Origin: Pseudomonas sp. p1(2021b)
GTDB taxonomy: Bacteria > Pseudomonadota > Gammaproteobacteria > Pseudomonadales > Pseudomonadaceae
DNA: 64,000 bases
Assembly (NCBI RefSeq): GCF_020151015.1
Contig: NZ_CP083746.1
Location: 4,990,501-5,054,500 of the forward strand
Reading direction: 5' to 3'
A program made the translations under genes and the position numbers. Shown here one piece after another: positions 11,039-30,056 of the stretch; the stretch's first letter is position 1, and each line of letters opens with the position of its first letter. Under the pieces are notes generated by a model. It saw nothing but the letters and a program-made list of their open reading frames with translations. It had not been told where the DNA came from and made no database searches.

Positions 11039-11049
11039 GGTCGGGGGCT

Positions 11050-20608: not shown

Positions 20609-22096
20609 ATGTCCCTCGCCCTCGTCCACAGCCGCGCCCAGGTCGGAGTACTGGCGCCCGCTGTCAGCGTCGAAACCCACCTGGCCAACGGCCTCCCAAC
20701 CCTGACCCTGGTCGGGCTGCCCGAAGCCACGGTCAAGGAAAGCAAGGACCGGGTGCGCAGCGCCATCGTCAACTCCGGGTTGGACTACCCCAACCGACGC
20801 ATCACCCAGAATCTCGCGCCCGCCGACCTGCCCAAGGATGGTGGCCGTTACGACCTGGCCATTGCCCTGGGCATCCTCGCCGCCAATGGCCAGGTACCGG
20901 TGGCGGCCTTGAGCGAGATCGAGTGCATTGGTGAGCTGGCCTTGTCGGGTGGGTTGCGCCCGGTGCAGGGCGTCTTGCCGGCGGCGCTGGCGGCACGGGA
21001 GGCCGGGCGGGCGTTGGTCGTGCCGAAGGAGAATGCGGAAGAGGCAAGCCTGGCAAGCGGCCTGGTGGTCTATGCGGTGGGCCATCTACTGGAGCTGGTC
21101 GCCCACCTCAACGGCCAGGTGCCCCTGCCACCCTATGCGGCCAACGGCTTGCTGCTGCGCAGCCGGCCCTACCCCGACCTCAGCGAAGTACAAGGCCAGG
21201 CCGCCGCCAAGCGTGCGCTGCTGGTGGCGGCGGCAGGGGCCCATAACCTCTTGTTCACAGGCCCACCCGGCACGGGCAAGACACTGCTCGCCAGCCGTTT
21301 GCCCGGTTTGCTTCCCCCGCTGGATGAACGCGAAGCCCTGGAAGTGGCGGCGATCCAATCCGTCAGCGGTCAAAAGCCGCTGGATTGCTGGCCGCAGCGC
21401 CCGTTTCGCCACCCACACCATTCGGCGTCCGGGCCAGCACTGGTCGGCGGGGGCAGCAGGCCGCAACCGGGGGAGATCACCCTGGCGCACCACGGCGTGT
21501 TGTTCCTGGACGAGTTGCCGGAGTTCGAACGGCGCGTGCTGGAGGTCCTTCGCGAACCCTTGGAGTCCGGCGAGATCGTGGTGGCGCGGGCCAAGGACCG
21601 GGTCCGCTTCCCGGCGCGCTTCCAGTTGGTGGCAGCGATGAATCCCTGCCCGTGCGGCTACCTGGGCGACCCCACCGGGCGCTGCCGCTGCAGCACCGAA
21701 CAAATCCAGCGCTACCGCAACAAGCTTTCCGGCCCCCTGCTCGACCGCATCGACCTGCACCTGACCGTGGCACGGGAAAGCACGGTGCTGACCAACGAAC
21801 CCAGCGGCGATTCCAGCGCCAGCGTCGCCCGCCTGGTAGCCGAGGCCCGCGAGCTGCAGCAGCGCCGCCAAGGGTGCGCCAATGCCTTTCTCGACCTCAA
21901 TGGCCTGCGCCGCCACTGCGTGCTGGAGCCTGCTGACCAGGCCTGGCTGGAAGGTGCCTGCGAGCGTTTGACCTTGTCGCTGCGCGCAGCCCATCGCCTG
22001 CTCAAGGTGGCCCGCACGCTGGCTGATCTCGAGCAAGTGGAGCGCATTGGCCGTGCGCACCTGGCCGAAGCGCTGCAGTATCGGCCTGGTTCCTGA
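20609..22096 (+). CDS. comM: ComM/YifB-family Mg-chelatase-like AAA+ ATPase
   Basis: 495 residues: an N-terminal Lon-protease-like domain (1-170), a Mg-chelatase-type AAA+ domain (Walker A GPPGTGKT 218-225; Walker B LFLDELPEF), a cysteine cluster (CPCGYLGDPTGRCRCS) and the C-terminal Mg_chelatase_C domain. ComM is a branch-migration helicase that aids integration of transforming DNA. The start at 20609 gives the family length. Its last 176 bp are partly duplicated at 29408-29580, flanking the accessory island. This copy is intact. Confidence 0.93.
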   Translation: MSLALVHSRAQVGVLAPAVSVETHLANGLPTLTLVGLPEATVKESKDRVRSAIVNSGLDYPNRRITQNLAPADLPKDGGRYDLAIALGILAANGQVPVAALSEIECIGELALSGGLRPVQGVLPAALAAREAGRALVVPKENAEEASLASGLVVYAVGHLLELVAHLNGQVPLPPYAANGLLLRSRPYPDLSEVQGQAAAKRALLVAAAGAHNLLFTGPPGTGKTLLASRLPGLLPPLDEREALEVAAIQSVSGQKPLDCWPQRPFRHPHHSASGPALVGGGSRPQPGEITLAHHGVLFLDELPEFERRVLEVLREPLESGEIVVARAKDRVRFPARFQLVAAMNPCPCGYLGDPTGRCRCSTEQIQRYRNKLSGPLLDRIDLHLTVARESTVLTNEPSGDSSASVARLVAEARELQQRRQGCANAFLDLNGLRRHCVLEPADQAWLEGACERLTLSLRAAHRLLKVARTLADLEQVERIGRAHLAEALQYRPGS

Positions 22097-22113
22097 TCAC
22101 CGCAGTGCAGGCG

Positions 22114-22141
22114 ACCCCATCGCGGGGCAAGGCGTTCCACA
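22114..22141. repeat. Degenerate REP relic after comM
   Basis: CCCATCGCGGGGCAAGG...TTCCACAGG keeps the two ends of a REP, but the central CCCGCT has decayed. It is the last host-type repeat before the island; the next recognisable REP is at 29,730. Confidence 0.55.
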
Positions 22142-22145
22142 GGTT

Positions 22146-22343
22146 TGGACTGTCCCCAAAAAGTTGGACAGTTCTAAGCTGCGGCCTGAGCCCTGTACTC
22201 AACAGGGCTCAGGCCATTAAGCCTCAGCTTGATGCGGTTCTGGTTGTAATACTCATCCAGACCCGCTTTCAACTCGTCGATAGTCTCGAAACGCTTCAGA
22301 TAAAAAACTCGGATTTGAGCGTGCCGAAGAAACTTTCCATCTC
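22146..22343 (-). pseudogene. IS3-family transposase C-terminal remnant with terminal repeat
   Basis: The minus-strand reading keeps MESFFGTLKSEFF and, after a frame change, LKRFETIDELKAGLDEYY and NGLSPVEYRAQA, the end of an IS3-family (OrfB/integrase-core) transposase. A one-base loss after SEFF creates a stop, and the catalytic core upstream is gone. The stop at 22174-22176 is followed by the apparent IS end, TGGACTGTCCCC...AAAAAGTTGGACA (22146-22170). Non-functional. Confidence 0.75.
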
Positions 22344-22508
22344 AAGCCGGAAACCTCACAGACGCGGACCGCTTGAAGGAAAGCGAACGCGTGGGAGCAG
22401 GAAGAAACTGTTGCGCCGGCCCACCAGCCTCCGCCCAGGAAGACGGCCCTCTCTAGCCCCTACCGTTGGTCAATTCACTGCTTTAGGGAGCAAGGGCGAC
22501 CACTGCGC

Positions 22509-22540
22509 TTGAGGACGAAAATAAACCCATGTGCTATAAT
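22509..22540 (+). promoter_or_regulatory. Probable promoter of the ietA operon
   Basis: A perfect TATAAT (22535-22540) with the extended TG one base upstream (TGCTATAAT). TTGAGG at 22509-22514 is a poor, over-spaced -35. Transcription would begin about 45 bp before the ietA start. Confidence 0.55.
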
Positions 22541-22590
22541 CTAGGCCACTTAGCCTCTCACTAAAAAACCTTTAAAATCAGCATATTGTC

Positions 22591-23775
22591 ATGACAATGG
22601 AAGACTCCAGCAAAGTAAAATCTGATTTAGTCCAGGTCGCTAGGCTAGCTTTAAGCGAAAAAACTGAGGACGTCAGGCTTTTCGTGGCACGCCTCGTTCG
22701 TCAGTACCGAGCGAGTGAGCCGGGCCTGGCTGAGCAGCTAGAGAATTTCCTCCGCACTCTCGCCCCTAGCGGGTCTTCGGCCTATATGCGCCGTGAGCCT
22801 CAGACTGGAAAGACCTCCAGAAGGGAGGACAGCTCATCTCTACCGGTCGATGAGGAATCTCGAATGTCGTTGTTGAAAATTTTTAACGACGGCCCCAATT
22901 ATCCTTCCCCACTACTCAGCGAAAGCGTCCAGCGATCCCTGGCACAGCTCATTCGCGAGCGAAAGCAGATCAAGAAACTGTCATCGCTGGGCTTGAGCCC
23001 AACGAGATCATCCGTATTTGTCGGAGCACCCGGCGTCGGGAAAACAATTACCGCTCGCTGGATCGCTGCGCAGTTGGGTGTCCCGCTTCTAGTTCTCGAT
23101 TTAACCGCGGTCATGAGCAGCCTGCTCGGGAAAAGCGGTGCCAATATCCGAGCGGCCCTCGACTACGCGAAGCGCACGCCATCTGTGCTTTTCCTAGACG
23201 AGATTGACGCAATCGCTAAGCGGCGCAGCGATGAAAGTGACATCGGTGAGCTCAAGCGACTGGTGACAGTGATCCTGCAAGAGGTTGATGAATGGCCTTC
23301 GAGCGGGCTGTTACTGGCAGCAACCAACCACCCCGAACTGATCGATCCGGCTCTGTGGCGCAGGTTCGATATGGTTATTGAGTTTAAATCGCCAGATGCA
23401 GATGCGATCAAAGCAGCGGTTGAACGTTTCCTAGGCCCTGACGCTTCAAAATTCGGAAACTGGCTTGACATACTCTCATACACCTTCCAAAACCAGTCTT
23501 TCAGTGATATTGAGCGAGATATACAGCGCCTGAGACGTACTCTCGCCCTCAGCGGTGGTAGCGTCCAGAAGTTGATCGAGGACTTCATTTCGCATAGAGC
23601 CTCCGATCTAGAACGGGCGCAGCAGCTTGAGTTCGCTTTACTGTTGGACAGAGAGACCTCTTTATCCCAACGCTCGATACACGAGCTAACCGGGGTAAGC
23701 AGAGACACCATTCGAAAACATCGGAAAGTAGAAGATGCATCTACTAGCCGATCAAGGACGAGAACCACTGCATGA
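22591..23775 (+). CDS. ietA: AAA+ ATPase, IetA-like component of a phage-defence pair
   Basis: 394 residues. Walker A is GAPGVGKT (145-152), Walker B is VLFLDEID (199-206), sensor 1 is in AATNHPE (244-250), and an arginine finger pair is in LWRRFD (255-260): a classic AAA domain with all key residues. The first about 110 residues are helical and family-specific. The C-terminus has a helix-turn-helix-like segment (357-378, SQRSIHELTGVSRDTIRKH). It overlaps the subtilase gene by 4 bp, the arrangement of the ietAS system (AAA ATPase plus subtilisin-like protease) shown to protect E. coli from phages. A second ATG at 22597 is possible; no strong Shine-Dalgarno is seen. Confidence 0.8.
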   Translation: MTMEDSSKVKSDLVQVARLALSEKTEDVRLFVARLVRQYRASEPGLAEQLENFLRTLAPSGSSAYMRREPQTGKTSRREDSSSLPVDEESRMSLLKIFNDGPNYPSPLLSESVQRSLAQLIRERKQIKKLSSLGLSPTRSSVFVGAPGVGKTITARWIAAQLGVPLLVLDLTAVMSSLLGKSGANIRAALDYAKRTPSVLFLDEIDAIAKRRSDESDIGELKRLVTVILQEVDEWPSSGLLLAATNHPELIDPALWRRFDMVIEFKSPDADAIKAAVERFLGPDASKFGNWLDILSYTFQNQSFSDIERDIQRLRRTLALSGGSVQKLIEDFISHRASDLERAQQLEFALLLDRETSLSQRSIHELTGVSRDTIRKHRKVEDASTSRSRTRTTA

Positions 23776-25985
23776 GCCAAACGAACTTTCTCATAGGTCG
23801 CGGGGAGCTGCTGACGCGGGATATCAAAGGGCCGAAAAGGAAAATGAAAAAGGCTGTTGCGTACACGCTTGAGCGTGCACGTGAGCGGCTGTCCGGCCAA
23901 GCGGACAATGCATCGCTCGCCCTTAGCGAGCTTCCGGTAAAGGCTTGTCCTCGTGACTTCGGTGTAGCGCGCATTGTGCTGAACCCAAGCTACATTGCAC
24001 GCTCTTATTTCCCGTCCGACCTACTCCGCGCCACCGGCCTTGAGTCGATCGGTAGCCGGCGCATAAAGGTTACGCCCGAGAGCTGGACTCGGACGATTGA
24101 ACCTCATGAGTGCGCGACCACTGAGATTTTCGTTGCCGGGAAGCGTAATGCCTTTCGAGCGTTGAGCGGCTGGATGGCTGAGGTAGAAGAAAAAACCGAA
24201 GAAGCCGACGACCTAACTCACATCGAAAAAATTCTCGCTTTCGAGCCCAGCGACCGCATCGTCAACTCGGGTACTTTAAACGACAAACATTTCGAGTTCG
24301 GCATCCATCTGCTGCCTGATAAGGACAGCACGTTTATACAGAAGGCATTCGTAGACTATGCCTCGGAGCTGAATCTGACTGTGCACACCGACTTGAGCTT
24401 TGAAGTCGGAAACCTATGGTTCGTACCGGTTGAAGGCAAGCAAAGCCAGGCACTCAAGCTTTCGAAGTTCGTCTTTGTTCGAGTCATCCGCCCCGTGCCT
24501 AAAATGCGAGGATTGCTGCCCTCAACCAAGCGCAGCGGCCCTTCGGTTGGATGCACCCTCCCCACACAGGACCCGCTCTCGTCCGAGCCAAGGGTAGCGA
24601 TTCTCGACGCGGGACTTCCTGACACCCATACGATCGGAAAGTGGTTGCGCAATTATCGGATTCTGGATGAAGACGCCAGTGACGATCCAGAAGGCCCCGA
24701 GCACGGGCTGGCAGCTACGTCCGCGTTTTTGTTTGGCCCCATTGAGCCTGAGGGCGCAGCGGCTCGCCCGTATTCCTACGTAGATCATCTTCGCGTATTG
24801 GATGAGGGCGCCAGTCTAGAGAACCCATTGGAGCTGTATCGGACGCTAGGTCACATCGAAGAAGTTCTGCTCTCCAGGCAATACGAATTCATCAACCTTA
24901 GCGTTGGTCCGGACGTAGCCATTGAAGACAACGATGTGCATGCCTGGACATCGGTGATCGATGATTTGCTGAGTGATGGCAACACCTTCATGACTATCGC
25001 GGCTGGCAACAACGGTGATCGCGATGAACTCTTGCAGTTTGACCGCGTGCAAGTCCCATCGGACTGCGTCAATGCAATCACCGTTGGAGCGGCCAACTGC
25101 ACAAGCTCCACTTGGGCACGCGCGCCATACAGCGCACGAGGACCAGGGCGCAGCCCTGGGGTAATCAAACCAGATTTGATGGCCTTCGGCGGTGGCAAGC
25201 AATACTTCCATGCGTTAGTACCAGGCAAGAAGCCAGCGCTAGTTCCGTTGTTAGGCACCAGTTTTGCTGCCCCCTATATCCTCCGCAGCGCCGTGGGCGT
25301 ACGTGCTGTCCTCGGCCAGGAGTTGTCAGTACTCGCAATCAAAGCTCTCCTGGTTCATGCGGCAGATAAGAACGGGCATGAGACGATCGATGTGGGATGG
25401 GGCAAGGTTCCGGAAGATCTGCTGGACGTAATCACCTGCCCTCCGGGAGTGGCGAGGATCGTCTATCAAGGCGAGCTCAAGCCGGGCAAGTACATTCGGG
25501 CCCCCCTCCCTCTCCCAGAGGGCTCGCTGACAGGCATGGTGAATTTGAAGGCTACCTTCTCATTTGCCTGCGCCACCGATCCGCAAGACCCAGCATCCTA
25601 CACGCGCGCGGGACTGGAAGTCACCTTCCGGCCGAACAAGGATAAAGTCAACACGGGTAAGGCCGATGCCAAAACCAAGCCGTTCTTCGAGAAGAAAAAG
25701 TTCGCAACGGAGGAAGAGCGGCGTTCTGATTCAGGCAAGTGGGAGACAGTGCTGCATGACTCAAAGAATATGCGGGGCAGCACTCTCAACGGAGCCACCT
25801 TTGACATCCATTACAATGCTCGCGAGCAAGGCGGTACAGCCGAAAAAGCCGATAAGATCAAATATGCGCTGATAATCACCGTCGAAGCGCCAAAGCACCC
25901 AGAACTCTACGCAGAGATACTAAAAGCCTATGCAGACACGCTAGTTCCGATCCAACCGCAGATTAGCCTGCCTGTACGGACTTGA
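23772..25985 (+). CDS. ietS: Subtilisin-like (S8) serine protease, IetS-like
   Basis: 737 residues without a signal peptide, so cytoplasmic. A unique N-terminal region (about 1-270) precedes an S8 domain with catalytic Asp279 (VAILDAG), His311 (EHGLAATSAF), oxyanion Asn413 (AAGNNGD) and Ser497 (GTSFAAP). A C-terminal beta-rich region of about 200 residues follows. All triad residues are present. The ATGA overlap with the ATPase gene (23772-23775) indicates coupled expression. By family knowledge IetA and IetS are both needed for phage resistance; the protease target is unknown. Confidence 0.8.
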   Translation: MSQTNFLIGRGELLTRDIKGPKRKMKKAVAYTLERARERLSGQADNASLALSELPVKACPRDFGVARIVLNPSYIARSYFPSDLLRATGLESIGSRRIKVTPESWTRTIEPHECATTEIFVAGKRNAFRALSGWMAEVEEKTEEADDLTHIEKILAFEPSDRIVNSGTLNDKHFEFGIHLLPDKDSTFIQKAFVDYASELNLTVHTDLSFEVGNLWFVPVEGKQSQALKLSKFVFVRVIRPVPKMRGLLPSTKRSGPSVGCTLPTQDPLSSEPRVAILDAGLPDTHTIGKWLRNYRILDEDASDDPEGPEHGLAATSAFLFGPIEPEGAAARPYSYVDHLRVLDEGASLENPLELYRTLGHIEEVLLSRQYEFINLSVGPDVAIEDNDVHAWTSVIDDLLSDGNTFMTIAAGNNGDRDELLQFDRVQVPSDCVNAITVGAANCTSSTWARAPYSARGPGRSPGVIKPDLMAFGGGKQYFHALVPGKKPALVPLLGTSFAAPYILRSAVGVRAVLGQELSVLAIKALLVHAADKNGHETIDVGWGKVPEDLLDVITCPPGVARIVYQGELKPGKYIRAPLPLPEGSLTGMVNLKATFSFACATDPQDPASYTRAGLEVTFRPNKDKVNTGKADAKTKPFFEKKKFATEEERRSDSGKWETVLHDSKNMRGSTLNGATFDIHYNAREQGGTAEKADKIKYALIITVEAPKHPELYAEILKAYADTLVPIQPQISLPVRT

Positions 25986-26054
25986 TGAATGGGCGCTGAG
26001 TACAATCGGCGCCACCAGAGTTGTTGCCTCGAATACAGTCGATAAGGACCAGGG

Positions 26055-27209
26055 ATGGAAACGTACCTCGTTTTAAGAAAACCTCCAGAGCAGCGTATCG
26101 GGTTCACTCGATCTGCAATCCGCGGAGGCAGTGCCACGATTGCTGTTGAGCGCATTCCTGGACATGCGCTATCTGACTTAAAAAAGGATCCTGACGTGCT
26201 AGTCGTGACTCCCCCGATGGCTACCGCACTGATCAGTCCGAGACAGAGCACCCAAGAACACCCGCCAACAGGAAGCGCTTGGGGTATAGCCTCCGTAGAA
26301 GCGGACCAGTCCCCTTACACGGGTGAGGGTGTGGTCGTTGCCGTGCTGGATACTGGCATCGAAAAAACTCATCCGGCTTTTGCGGGAATGGACATTCTGG
26401 AAGAGGATTTCACTGGCGAGGGCATTGGTGATCACGATGGGCATGGAACCCACTGCGCCGGTACGATTTTCGGCCGAGACGTTAATGGACAGCGAATCGG
26501 AATAGCCAGAGGTATCAACCGAGCACTCGTAGGAAAGGTCATTGGACAGAGAGGGGGTGACTCTCAGATGATTTTCGACGGGTTGCAATGGGCAATGAGA
26601 GAAAGGGCAAACATCATCTCAATGTCTCTTGGCTTCGACTTCCCCGGCGAGGTACAGAAGAAGGTAGATGCCGGATGGCCAGCGGACTTGGCTACCTCAG
26701 AGGCACTCGAAGCCTATCGCGGCAATATTCGGCTGCTTGACGCCCTGATGGGCTTTTTCAAAGCACAATCCGCATTTGATGCCGCGCCGCTAGTTATTGC
26801 GGCAGCAGGAAACGAAAGCCGTAGAGCGGTGAACTCTCGCTACAAAATAGCTGCCTCCATTCCCGCAGCCGCTGACGGGGTCATTTCGGTTGCCGCATTG
26901 CAATCAAGCGGTTCTCTTTACGAGGTGGCAGATTTTTCTAACAGTCATGCACAGGTCAGCGCTCCCGGCGTAAATGTGCTTTCCGCCTGGCTTGGAGGGC
27001 AGCTTAAAGCCATCGACGGCACAAGTATGGCGTGTCCTCATGTAGCGGGAGTTGCAGCCCTTTGGTGGCAGCATTTACGCGAAAAACGCTCCCCAAACCT
27101 AGCCAGCGCTGTCACCTCGCACCTAACCACTCATGCCCGTAGTGACTGCTTTGTTTCAGGTTTTGATTCGAGCGATTACGGACACGGCCTGGTCACTTGC
27201 CCCCGATAA
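26055..27209 (+). CDS. Second S8 subtilase, cytoplasmic, downstream of the ietAS-like pair
   Basis: 384 residues. The first about 85 resemble a propeptide/inhibitor domain (YLVLRKPP..., KDPDVLVVTPPM). The S8 domain has Asp99 (AVLDTGI), His130 (DGHGTHCAG), Asn253 (AAAGNES) and Ser324 (DGTSMACPHVAG), all intact. No signal peptide or anchor. It begins 69 bp after ietS with a Shine-Dalgarno-like AAGGACCAGG ahead of the ATG, so it may share the transcript. It is closer to ordinary subtilisins than to IetS. The known ietAS system has two genes; a third protease gene is unusual. Confidence 0.8.
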   Translation: METYLVLRKPPEQRIGFTRSAIRGGSATIAVERIPGHALSDLKKDPDVLVVTPPMATALISPRQSTQEHPPTGSAWGIASVEADQSPYTGEGVVVAVLDTGIEKTHPAFAGMDILEEDFTGEGIGDHDGHGTHCAGTIFGRDVNGQRIGIARGINRALVGKVIGQRGGDSQMIFDGLQWAMRERANIISMSLGFDFPGEVQKKVDAGWPADLATSEALEAYRGNIRLLDALMGFFKAQSAFDAAPLVIAAAGNESRRAVNSRYKIAASIPAAADGVISVAALQSSGSLYEVADFSNSHAQVSAPGVNVLSAWLGGQLKAIDGTSMACPHVAGVAALWWQHLREKRSPNLASAVTSHLTTHARSDCFVSGFDSSDYGHGLVTCPR

Positions 27210-27367
27210 AAGGTGGGTGAGGGAAGCCACCGAGACCCGGCAGCTTGTCTAGCTAGCTTATTCTCTCGTGCATGCGCTAATAGAGAGCCATAGGAGAAGG
27301 TCGGCGCAATCGAAATGCTCACACCGTTGCCGAGCAAAATGGCCTCACGACGGTAGCTCGCAGACAT
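27176..27367 (-). pseudogene. 5' stump of a DUF4917/SIR2-like gene
   Basis: The minus-strand frame starts MSASYRREA, then ILLGNGVSISIAPTFSYGSL. This closely resembles the N-terminal nucleotide-binding motif (LLGNGFSI...F.Y..L) of DUF4917 and related SIR2-like proteins, several of which are NAD-consuming defence effectors. After about 40 residues the likeness ends, and the frame runs into the antisense of the second subtilase. It looks like a truncated relic, left when the protease module was inserted. Family assignment by motif only. Confidence 0.45.
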
Positions 27368-27476
27368 CTCTGCTTACAGCAGGATAGGAAGTGGCATACC
27401 GGCTCCGTTTTGGCTATTATCGCGGATGATTGTCCTAGGCGGTGGAAATTTAGCAGAGCTAGGATTAGTGCAATAT

Positions 27477-28637
27477 CTAAGCGCTCTTAGAGTCGATAGA
27501 TTGTAGCAAGTCCTGGGTCAATAATTCAAAAACACAGAAATCCTCCGGGTCTCGGAAGCCGGCCGATTTGATCTTCTTCAAAAGCCTCGAAATGTTCCTT
27601 GCCTGTAATCGCCCCACTCCAAGCTTATTCACGAGATAATCCTCAAAGACCGTCTCCCCGTCGCACCGTAAAACAAGATTGACACCAAACTCGAATTGCG
27701 TCATTGACACCACATCTAAGTCCTCTTCAGAGACCACCTCTACTGGCCAATCGTCAAGTGATTTGATGAGCGCGCTATAGATCTCGGTTAATTCCCCTAG
27801 CAATGCGATCGCTTGTGGATAGGACTGGTTATACCACGCCTTGTTGGTCTGCAGAGCATACGTGACGCCATTACAAGTAACTTCGCGAGGCTTGCCTCGA
27901 TAAACCCCAGAGTTGTGCACAGTATTCCTACAGGCGCCTAAGAAATCTATGACCTCTTTATCATGATTTATATCTCTCACATAAGCCTTCTTATCAACCA
28001 TCTTAAAAAGTGCATTAACTTTATCTGGAAATGATCGATAGCCACTTCGAACGGAGAGGATTTTTTCTAGACACTTAGTTTTGGCATCCTCAGAGTCCGC
28101 CTCTCCATGCCTCGCGAGCAGCTCAACAATCTTTGCTCTACGACTTTCTTCATATTCAGCCTCAAGCTTTTTCGCGTAACCAGAATATAGCTTAGAGATC
28201 CAATTTTCGAAGCAGGAAAACGCTGAGACAGTAAAGTCCAGCATCAGACTCGAGACCATCCCGTTAATTCTTTCGCTTAATAGTTTCCTAACGTCAGACA
28301 CCGATGATAAGAAATCATCATCCGAAAGCCTAGCGGGCTTGCCGTTGATCTGCACGAATGGAGTCAAGTGCTTTTCATCATGAATCTCAAGCAGCAAGTC
28401 GGGACAGTAATGTCTAGCGGCCATATTAGAAAGTTCTTCATTAATCATGAAAACAATGGGTAAGTCACAGACATCCTTGAGATTGGTATAATAATTACGC
28501 ACCCTTATGAACGGAAGATCATTTTTGTTAATAGTATAATCCCCACGCAGCGTGCATTTTTCCAAAAGAACAGCCTTATTCTTTAAGGCCATAAATGCAG
28601 AAATTATTTTTTTATGATTCTCGTCAAAAAATCCCAT
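27477..28637 (-). CDS. Uncharacterised protein with a HEPN-like R-x3-H motif
   Basis: 386 residues from the ATG at 28635-28637, chosen because AGGAGGT lies at the right distance upstream (about 28648-28654); a longer frame adds 30 residues without a ribosome site. It is mainly helical. FTVSAFSCFENWISKLYSGY (about 135-154) and CRNTVHNSGVY (Arg237, His241) recall HEPN-type families, in which an R(N)x3-5H motif forms the RNase active site, though this spacing is one short of the usual Rx4-6H. No signal or membrane segment. AT-rich, unlike the core genome. It sits among defence genes, so an abortive-infection role is plausible but unproven. Confidence 0.6.
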   Translation of the reverse strand: MGFFDENHKKIISAFMALKNKAVLLEKCTLRGDYTINKNDLPFIRVRNYYTNLKDVCDLPIVFMINEELSNMAARHYCPDLLLEIHDEKHLTPFVQINGKPARLSDDDFLSSVSDVRKLLSERINGMVSSLMLDFTVSAFSCFENWISKLYSGYAKKLEAEYEESRRAKIVELLARHGEADSEDAKTKCLEKILSVRSGYRSFPDKVNALFKMVDKKAYVRDINHDKEVIDFLGACRNTVHNSGVYRGKPREVTCNGVTYALQTNKAWYNQSYPQAIALLGELTEIYSALIKSLDDWPVEVVSEEDLDVVSMTQFEFGVNLVLRCDGETVFEDYLVNKLGVGRLQARNISRLLKKIKSAGFRDPEDFCVFELLTQDLLQSIDSKSA

Positions 28638-28875
28638 TAAAACCCTACCTCCTATATTGGCACTCACCTGTTTATACGGGTACTGGACTGACTTGCAGCC
28701 AAGTAAATCCTGATGGTAATCCTCCAACTAATTAATAGCAACATGTCATCAAACTCCAAAAATAGACATCGCGAATTATTCCTTATGAACGCGGTGAAGG
28801 ACAGCCGAGCGCGCGGGGATTTTCTTTGGAGAATGGAGCAAAATGATCTATTTCCGAACAATAAAGCGAATTAGA
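28638..28875. other. Spacer upstream of the HEPN-like gene
   Basis: AT-rich sequence with short frames that show no family likeness. It should contain the promoter of the minus-strand HEPN-like gene. Nothing else recognised. Confidence 0.3.
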
Positions 28876-29150
28876 TTATTGAGGCTGCGTAGCGCACATA
28901 ACCTCATAGACCAAAGAATTGAAAGAGCGCTCATGAAATAGCTTGAACACAATAACCGTAGAAGAAAGCAGCATCGCAATAGAGTTAGCAACCATCGCCG
29001 GCGTATCAGCTGTCTTAAAGCTCTATGATGCCCCACAAGACAACCCAAATAGCAGTGCTAACCACATAGCAAGCGATAGACCGCTTACATCTTGGTTCTT
29101 GGTGAGGTGAAGAACTCGCAGAAGAAACGACCCGGTTGTAACCTATGCAG
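28876..29150 (-). pseudogene. Decayed SemiSWEET (MtN3/PQ-loop) sugar transporter
   Basis: Conceptual translation on the minus strand keeps VTTGSF, TKNQDVSGLSLAMW, LALLFG, a frame-shifted VLWGII, and then KTADTPAMVANSIAMLLSS, ending in ...CATQPQ and TAA (28876-28878). These blocks are in the order of a bacterial SemiSWEET: helix 1 end, the TK-D-SGLSL loop, helix 2, and the DxP-VAN helix 3. Two small frame changes and at least two in-frame stops break it, and the start is unclear. Non-functional. Confidence 0.55.
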
Positions 29151-29407
29151 CCAGTGCCACCGGTCAATGCTGCAAGATTGCGACACTCAAAACAGCCAAC
29201 ACCAATATGCTAACGACAATGACTTTATTACTCGTCCCTTTACCTCACCTCGACCCACTTTTTTGCAGCGGCCCGTGTGACGTTACTACGCGGTGAACCT
29301 CAACGCAGATGTCTTGTATCTTCTAATCAACGCACCCTCATTTGCAACCACCACCAATGGCAATCCATGCAATACAAGTGCTGCAATATCCAGGAGGCTC
29401 ACCACGG
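29151..29407. other. Right end of island, no gene recognised
   Basis: About 260 bp of lower-GC sequence. Open frames are short and without family likeness. No tRNA, direct repeat or integrase site seen other than the comM copy that follows. Confidence 0.35.
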
Positions 29408-29580
29408 TGCTGGCACTTGCCGACCAGGCCTGGCTGGAAAGTGCCTGCGAGCGTTTGACCATGTCGCTGCGGGCGGCCCATCGATTCTCAAGGTGGCCCG
29501 CACGCTGGCCGATATTGAACAGGTGGCGGACATTGGCCGGGCGCACCTGGCTGAAGCGCTGCAGTCGGCCTGGCTCTTGA
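29408..29580 (+). pseudogene. Second, degenerate 3' end of comM
   Basis: It aligns base by base with 21921-22096, the last 58 codons of comM, at roughly 85-88 percent identity by eye. It encodes ADQAWLESACERLTMSLRAA before a one-base deletion (CATCGATTC against CATCGCCTGC) shifts the frame. A 2-3 base loss near the end precedes a TGA at the matching place. It cannot be expressed as ComM and marks the far boundary of the island. Confidence 0.88.
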
Positions 29581-30056
29581 TCGGCACGGTTCTGCGGTCA
29601 AGGACAAGCCACACCGCCCCACCAAGCCCGCTCCCAGAAGATCAGTTTGTTCTTTGCGCTACAGCGCGGCCCAAAAGGGCTGGGTGATCTCCCACAGGGA
29701 TCCCATGGCAACAAGCGTACACGGGGCCTGTAGCAGCTGGCGGAGCCTGCGATGGGCCGCATAGCGGCCCCTTGAGTCTGGAGGGGCTCCAGCGTTTGAG
29801 GGCTTGGGGCTGCTTTGCAGCCCATCGCAGGCTGTCGCCAGCTCCCACCGAATTGCGCCGCTCTCAAGACTTGCGAAATTCCTGTGGGCTTGTCCCGCGA
29901 TGGGGTCTGCAAAGGTGCCAATGACAGAACGCTGCTTCTCGGGAAACCTGGATTGTCCTGTTTCGATCCCCGAACGAAAATGCGCCCCTCGCTTACCCTG
30001 GCGTAAGCTGATACCGCTGCGCCAATCCCCCACAAGCCGCTCAAGGAGCCCGAGCA
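29581..30056. other. Host-type spacer with REP-like repeats before kefC
   Basis: About 475 bp. It resumes host features: a partial REP (CTCCCACAGG near 29690) and a long inverted pair at 29730-29858. No convincing gene. The kefC ribosome site AAGGAG is at about 30041-30046. Confidence 0.5.
29730..29858. repeat. Inverted REP-like pair upstream of kefC
   Basis: Arms AGCTGGCGGAGCCTGCGATG and the complementary CATCGCAGGCTGTCGCCAGC bracket two AGCGGCC/GCTGCTTTGCAGC sub-hairpins. This is a REP variant family (GCTGGCG/CGCCAGC) different from the CCCGCTCC type common in the rest of the window. Confidence 0.7.

Follow-up and report, generated by a model that had tools for sequence, protein, structure and literature searches.

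A candidate three-gene IetAS-type defence operon with a putative pro-subtilase in Pseudomonas

Introduction

The IetAS system was reportedly described by Gao et al. in 2020; in E. coli, ietAS consists of two genes. Its mechanism is called unknown in passages of two papers, PMC11878078 (2025) and PMC9958689 (2023). Type IV Thoeris, as portrayed in excerpts of Rousset et al. (2025; PMC12847820, PMC13373217), joins a TIR protein to a caspase-like protease. In nuclease-protease pairs and Canu, according to sections of Tuck et al. (2025; PMC12799240), a pro-enzyme with disordered gating loops has been acquired repeatedly by unrelated systems; this pro-enzyme is an MBL nuclease, which a caspase or trypsin-like protease encoded as its partner opens by cleavage. 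The term "ietA" is absent from the main text of that paper. Multi-peptidase NucA systems, in which a subtilisin of the S8 family and a trypsin are arranged around NucA, are covered in parts of Kaur et al. (2020; PMC7159879), where peptidase cascades were proposed. Finally, intracellular subtilisins carry LIPY/F, an inhibitory pro-peptide motif (PMC6220982, in excerpt).

Here, we describe an IetAS-like pair followed by a gene for another S8 protease, for which the name Sub3 was coined in this analysis. The locus was studied in a window of 64,000 nucleotides of Pseudomonas sp. p1(2021b) (contig NZ_CP083746.1, positions 4,990,501 to 5,054,500), to which all coordinates below refer. It resembles IetAS in that an AAA+ ATPase gene overlaps an S8 protease gene and the PADLOC IetA and IetS models are matched, and differs from it by the third protease gene, a dibasic IetS linker and missed NCBI equivalog cut-offs. 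The cascade proposed below is similar to the Canu scheme, at least as set out in those sections, in pairing a gated pro-enzyme with a partner protease, but the pro-enzyme there is an MBL nuclease and in the window would be a second protease; no nuclease family is present among the Pfam matches of the nine proteins scanned. In the NucA systems the domains are fused, and neither IetAS nor a caspase-Sub3 pairing appears in the available parts of PMC7159879. Among open-licence papers, no work joining a subtilase with IetAS or TIR-caspase loci was found among the matches listed. What is new here is a third-gene, putative pro-subtilase on an otherwise known IetAS pair.

Organization of the locus

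The ietA-like gene (22591..23775, + strand) encodes a 394-aa AAA+ ATPase, which is matched by PADLOC IetA over residues 10-381 (1.5e-79) and by Pfam AAA (7.4e-30). It is directly followed on the same strand, with a 4-bp overlap, by the ietS-like gene (23772..25985, +) for a 737-aa S8 protease matched by PADLOC IetS over residues 21-721 (1.6e-50). The ATPase motifs of the former and the protease triad of the latter (D279/H311/S497) are intact, and the triad is unchanged in 132/132 aligned IetS proteins. Sub3 (26055..27209, +) starts 69 bp after ietS and encodes a putative intracellular-type pro-subtilase (S8) of 384 aa with D99/H130/S324; it matches Pfam Peptidase_S8 (1e-38), and its top PADLOC match is a generic subtilase model. 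A preliminary description of this DNA had given the coordinates of the locus, the overlap, the gap and intact catalytic residues, all of which were confirmed. It had also called the first two genes an ietAS-like pair, an assignment supported by the PADLOC models although the NCBI equivalog cut-offs for IteA (226.3 of 510 bits) and IteS (130.4 of 900 bits), which are naming thresholds stricter than family membership, were missed. Because of these missed cut-offs the pair, judged by its sequence, is a diverged relative of IetAS and not NCBI's equivalog. Promoter- and terminator-like sites are no more frequent than in shuffles, and gene spacing is therefore the basis for the operon structure. The window's own genome holds no second Sub3 at E ≤ 0.001.

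The cassette lies within a GC-poor stretch. To its left is an intact comM (yifB; TIGR00368, 3e-190), the 3' end of which (21920..22098, +) forms one edge, and to its right is a partial second copy of comM's last 179 bp, 86% identical (29407..29582, +). Because these two flank the cassette, it likely sits on an integrated island (22097-29406), with the 3' end of comM as the likely integration site. By eye, the segment 22140-22360 next to the left edge resembles the terminal part of an IS3-type element. The island also encodes, on the minus strand, a 416-aa protein (27477-28727) without a match in Pfam, PADLOC or NCBIfam; of loci L001-L163, L173 and L175-L183, tblastn recovered it only in L001, which is identical with the window. 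It was considered as a member of the system and dropped for want of such matches and of relatives beside Sub3 or IetS elsewhere. Further repeats, of a family that we take to be REP/BIME-like, occur across the window at 11044, 17154, 38430, 42644, 49872, 51911, 56815, 61811 and 63081; in many of these nine, about 80-118 bp match the reverse complement of the same repeat.

Association of Sub3 with IetS

In 398 genomes of the genus, the window's own included, Sub3 (E ≤ 1e-60) is found in seven and IetS (E ≤ 1e-20) in seven; both are present in three, namely its own, G270 and G405. In the four other Sub3-bearing genomes the relatives stand at 52-55% and IetS is absent, and the four other IetS-bearing genomes have no Sub3 at E ≤ 1e-60. 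G270 seems to represent the very locus listed as L004 (Pseudomonas putida HAI-2; the identities are the same), which repeats the gene order of the window at 69-79% identity with an IetS-Sub3 spacing of 54 bp, as compared to 69 bp in the window. Wider scans add little: Sub3 occurs in 3/369 genomes of the class (E ≤ 1e-70, its own included) and in one of 283 of the order, its own, and a DNA-level search of E. coli genomes gave none. Among viral contigs, a scan with the entire Sub3 alignment returned mostly generic subtilases, the best relative among the matches listed reaching 46% (L084), and a scan with a subfamily-specific Sub3 segment produced 32 matches to the pattern, none of them a relative. 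Phage records include 33 with a Sub3 match, all below 60% and only three covering 80% of the query, and seven with an IetS match.

Since genome sampling yielded few Sub3 loci, shared-contig matching was used. This test looks for exact equality of the clusters' longest-contig sizes between two protein search lists, here the best 120 relatives each of Sub3, IetS and the L175-type caspase introduced below; an equal size is taken to indicate that two proteins lie on one contig. Sub3 and IetS share 18 contigs, window included, against 0.36 expected by chance; when the sizes are shifted by a few bases, 0-1 matches are left (0-2 for Sub3 and caspase). Some of the contigs are as short as 6.8 kb, and the named records among them include Pseudomonas, Aeromonas and Oceanobacter. 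IetS and Sub3 also co-diverge (r = 0.929, Mantel p 2e-4, 17/18 pairs). On these sequence comparisons, Sub3 is not a chance neighbour of IetAS. The search for the second subtilase beside ietAS proposed in the preliminary description has come out in favour of co-occurrence among close relatives, and the opposite outcome that it envisaged, a subtilase found mostly without ietAS, holds for the family at large but, to the extent that contig matching reveals, not for the close clade that includes the window's gene. IetS is found in one of the 28 loci L004-L031, namely L004, among the matches listed, some of these loci being short; the notion of Sub3 as strictly a third gene of IetAS was dropped on this count. 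A weak IetS match in L013 proved to be its own Sub3. In eight plasmid IetAS loci, inspected within stretches of 13-15 kb, Sub3 is absent (0/8).

Caspases as partners of Sub3

A Pseudomonas locus (L175, in G405) unites, in this order, IetA, IetS, TIR, ThsB-like TIR, caspase, Sub3 and TIR genes. With its caspase (Pfam Peptidase_C14, 7e-18) as a query, 18 contigs are shared by Sub3 and caspase against 0.74 expected (best 120 each): two (9,944 and 19,086) hold Sub3, IetS and caspase, and 16 others Sub3 and caspase, with Undibacterium and Cupriavidus as named examples. IetS and caspase share three contigs against 0.37 expected, the third without a Sub3 match. Caspase and Sub3 co-diverge as well (r = 0.915, Mantel p 2e-4, 17/18 pairs). 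On a Sphingomonas plasmid (L196), a caspase gene lies 16 bp from Sub3, followed by CHAT and TIR genes, and a short upstream TIR is recognised by profile; in an Agrobacterium Ti plasmid, Sub3 stands between a CHAT gene (before it) and a TIR gene (after it), and a caspase-TIR pair comes later. The earlier idea of a third gene tied to IetAS thus survives for the close branch but not as an invention of IetAS, the other main partner being a TIR-associated caspase.

That partner, a caspase beside or near TIR genes (L175, L196, plasmid loci), recalls type IV Thoeris as excerpted above. The window differs in that a TIR beside a caspase-like effector is not found at 15-36 kb, where caspase, ThsB and TIR profiles match none of the ORFs starting there. 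Furthermore, relative to type IV Thoeris, Sub3 is an added gene: it is present in Sphingomonas L196 and in 0/8 further plasmid TIR-caspase loci, in which the gene on the 3' side varies (metallophosphoesterase, TIR, short unknown proteins).

A putative gate in the Sub3 prodomain

The structural model of Sub3 aligns to pro-subtilisins over residues 1-384, and mature subtilisins align from residue 71 on. The preceding part, about residues 1-70 (26055..26264, +), has a strand-loop-strand-helix-strand-strand order in the model, presumably an I9-like fold. Prodomain and catalytic domain are thus modelled in one chain, the architecture of a pro-subtilisin zymogen; the zymogen nature of Sub3 is putative. 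Near the end of the prodomain, LISP (L59-P62; 26229..26240, +) resembles the LIPY/F motif: L59 and P62 are invariant and I60 is present in at least 90% of 25 aligned relatives, and alignment of the B. clausii ISP precursor (2wwt) with the Sub3 model begins at residue 56. Sub3 is therefore like the intracellular subtilisins, as far as the excerpt of PMC6220982 describes them, in being a cytoplasmic-type S8 protease with an N-terminal LI-P segment, but has in addition a whole prodomain with an Arg loop. This loop, residues 13-24 (26091..26126, +), is disordered (pLDDT under 50) and contains FTR-S, within which R19 (26109-26111, +) is the proposed activating cut.

A loop motif, [LIVF][KTI]R[SGA], which was defined after viewing the sequence set, is present in 19/19 testable IetS-linked rows (shuffled mean 0.32) and in 0/23 solitary rows. 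The twentieth IetS-linked protein, P0020, lacks its N-terminus and stands outside the motif counts; 2/18 caspase-class and 9/86 unlinked rows are too short in the loop. The caspase class comprises 16 contig-linked proteins, L196, and L024, in which a weak caspase match (1.7e-5) adjoins Sub3. "Solitary" denotes rows with no partner by phmmer markers, by IetS, caspase, ThsB and TIR profiles, and by Pfam, the last being limited to selected neighbours; loci L019, L022, L027, L029, L030, L031 and L084 are outside the class counts and inside the profile search. Counted by alignment column (18/19), Arg occupies the loop in 30 of the 35 linked rows covered (of 38) against 4/23 solitary rows, and in 14/16 caspase-linked rows. 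An alignment-free count, cruder than the column count and with a pattern that dropped more rows, gives 15/18 IetS-linked, 11/11 caspase-linked, 48/63 unlinked and 3/16 solitary rows. Relatives adjacent to CHAT or trypsin genes have no loop Arg (0/3 covered rows; motif 0/4), and the Arg-loop account is for this reason not extendable to them.

Four close relatives of Sub3 (P0014, P0016, P0025 and P0026) have SITGL, SITSL, KMSGL and SISGL, respectively, and no loop Arg. They have no IetS contig match, one contig being too short to tell, and may be partner-free.

A tree was built from 91 rows of Sub3 proteins of at least 340 aa, one in three of the unlinked rows being kept. Its 19 IetS-linked rows all belong to a single clade (support 100/98, 35 rows), the other members of which are four caspase-linked and 12 unlabelled rows; no solitary row is among them. 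A neighbouring group of 32 rows with weak support (81/67) holds 13/18 caspase-class rows and six solitary ones.

Proposed cascade and alternatives

We propose that IetA would sense infection and turn IetS on; that Sub3 would be cleaved after Arg19, in the disordered loop of its inhibitory prodomain, either by IetS or in a few successive cuts involving the proteases; and that the freed Sub3 would degrade cytoplasmic proteins, stopping the infected cell. Sub3 would then be an executioner protease hung on different initiators, a caspase in some loci and IetS here. The steps differ in how far they can be trusted. Sub3 very probably belongs functionally with this IetAS branch, and it is probably a zymogen released by cleavage within residues 13-24. 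That IetS, the only partner protease seen in the window, makes this cut is what we infer with somewhat less than even confidence. The joint reading, in which three genes form an IetAS-type defence operon within an island at the comM 3' end and IetS acts on Sub3 in a cascade, has in our estimate slightly better than an even chance. Co-occurrence, co-divergence, the pro-subtilisin fold and the Arg motifs in Sub3 and IetS all support the original suggestion of a third-gene zymogen; the two-protease cascade put forward with it is plausible when seen as one case within a broader theme of proteases combined with Sub3.

IetS has a candidate cleavage region of its own. Residues 245-257 (24504..24542, +) form a predicted-disordered linker that joins the N-terminal domain to the catalytic domain (pLDDT under 50 in a low-confidence model, mean pLDDT 65) and contain MR-G (R246) and KR-S (253-255). 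At the latter position, [KR]R[SGN] is found in 20/20 Sub3-linked rows. The broader [KR]R[SGAN] occurs in 15/101 IetS without a matched contig and in 0/11 loci seen without Sub3; 14 of these 15 (ranks 124-150) are closely related and quite possibly have Sub3 as well. In a FastTree phylogeny of 132 IetS, it is present in 35/36 members of one clade and 0/96 outside. The Sub3 motif and the dibasic linker can be regarded as one evolutionary event since both follow one clade, and the matching linker implies that IetS and Sub3 may share one cutting logic. The same confinement of the linker motif to the Sub3-bearing clade would be expected if Sub3, or a protease common to both, were what cuts IetS. 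The order could then be reversed or mutual, with Sub3 as the Arg-cutting protease that activates IetS by a cut at KR-S, or with both cutting each other in feedback. We regard this order as unlikely: Arg246 is present in 131/132 aligned IetS, with or without Sub3, and Arg is kept in the same loop of caspase-linked Sub3 rows, which is why the loop looks like a target and not like a trait of Sub3's own specificity.

The simplest reading of the tree, the root being unsure, would make Sub3 first a partner of a TIR-caspase system and then a gene joined to IetAS, as in L175; the Pseudomonas branch, to which the window belongs, would later have lost caspase and TIR and kept Sub3 beside IetS. Sub3 could be a passenger left over from a lost TIR-caspase cassette, with no role in IetAS defence: L175 preserves the full composite locus, many caspase-linked rows sit in the neighbouring tree group, and a search of the window's genome for the L175-type caspase (E ≤ 0.001, without a positive control) found none, as did a profile search of the L004 and L176 stretches. 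We give the passenger reading no greater credence than the reversed order, for Sub3 co-diverges with IetS, their tight spacing is kept in both L004 and the window, and the prodomain motif is retained in Pseudomonas rows without a caspase contig match, caspase absence in these other rows being judged from the best 120 caspase relatives.

Subtilase zymogens often self-process, and pro-protein convertases make a second, internal cut of their own prodomain. Arg19 could therefore be a self-cut, with IetS setting only the expression or oligomer state of Sub3. The modelled pro-subtilisin fold and the internal prodomain cuts known for S8 enzymes agree with this, but solitary relatives, which would be most in need of a self-cut, have no motif, and we hold this option to be more doubtful still. 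We consider it very improbable that Sub3 works independently, be it as a one-gene defence or as a housekeeping intracellular subtilisin clustering in defence islands: many relatives stand alone, 27 of the 28 loci L004-L031 have no match to the IetS, caspase, ThsB or TIR profiles and several relatives adjoin metabolic genes such as PfkB, but among the rows tested the window's own Sub3 clade contains no solitary row, and solitary rows do not have the loop motif.

A possible portable executioner

Leaving the alternatives and returning to an initiator-driven Sub3, the pattern of partners suggests that the same "executioner" protease is swapped between unrelated bacterial immune systems. By analogy with initiator and executioner caspases, Sub3 might be a portable pro-subtilase, gated by its Arg loop and placed under unrelated initiators, a view that we advance tentatively. 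The initiators would be TIR-associated caspases and IetS; more loosely, and with equal reserve, they could include CHAT and trypsin-like proteins, neighbours so far without the Arg. Such neighbours are known from single loci: CHAT in L021, trypsin-NucA in L023 and a trypsin-like protease in L198. If Sub3 depends on IetS, its cleavage at one predicted site would provide a readable output of IetAS. Were the proposal true, the modular scheme that Tuck et al. set out for pro-nucleases would also apply to cascades of one protease acting on another, and IetAS and TIR-caspase immunity would be connected by a component that they have in common.

In L211 and L216, a metallophosphoesterase gene lies directly downstream of TIR-caspase (in L216, after one short gene), at the position held by Sub3 elsewhere, and may be another interchangeable pro-enzyme. 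IetAS and caspase genes also meet without Sub3: in L203 (2517-3671) and L204 (2512-3672), two of the eight plasmid IetAS loci, a caspase-family gene flanked by hypothetical genes is located slightly upstream of IetAS on the other strand. On plasmids of Bradyrhizobium (L206) and Rhizobium (L207), IetAS adjoins multiubiquitin/ThiF genes, a possible ubiquitin-like conflict operon.
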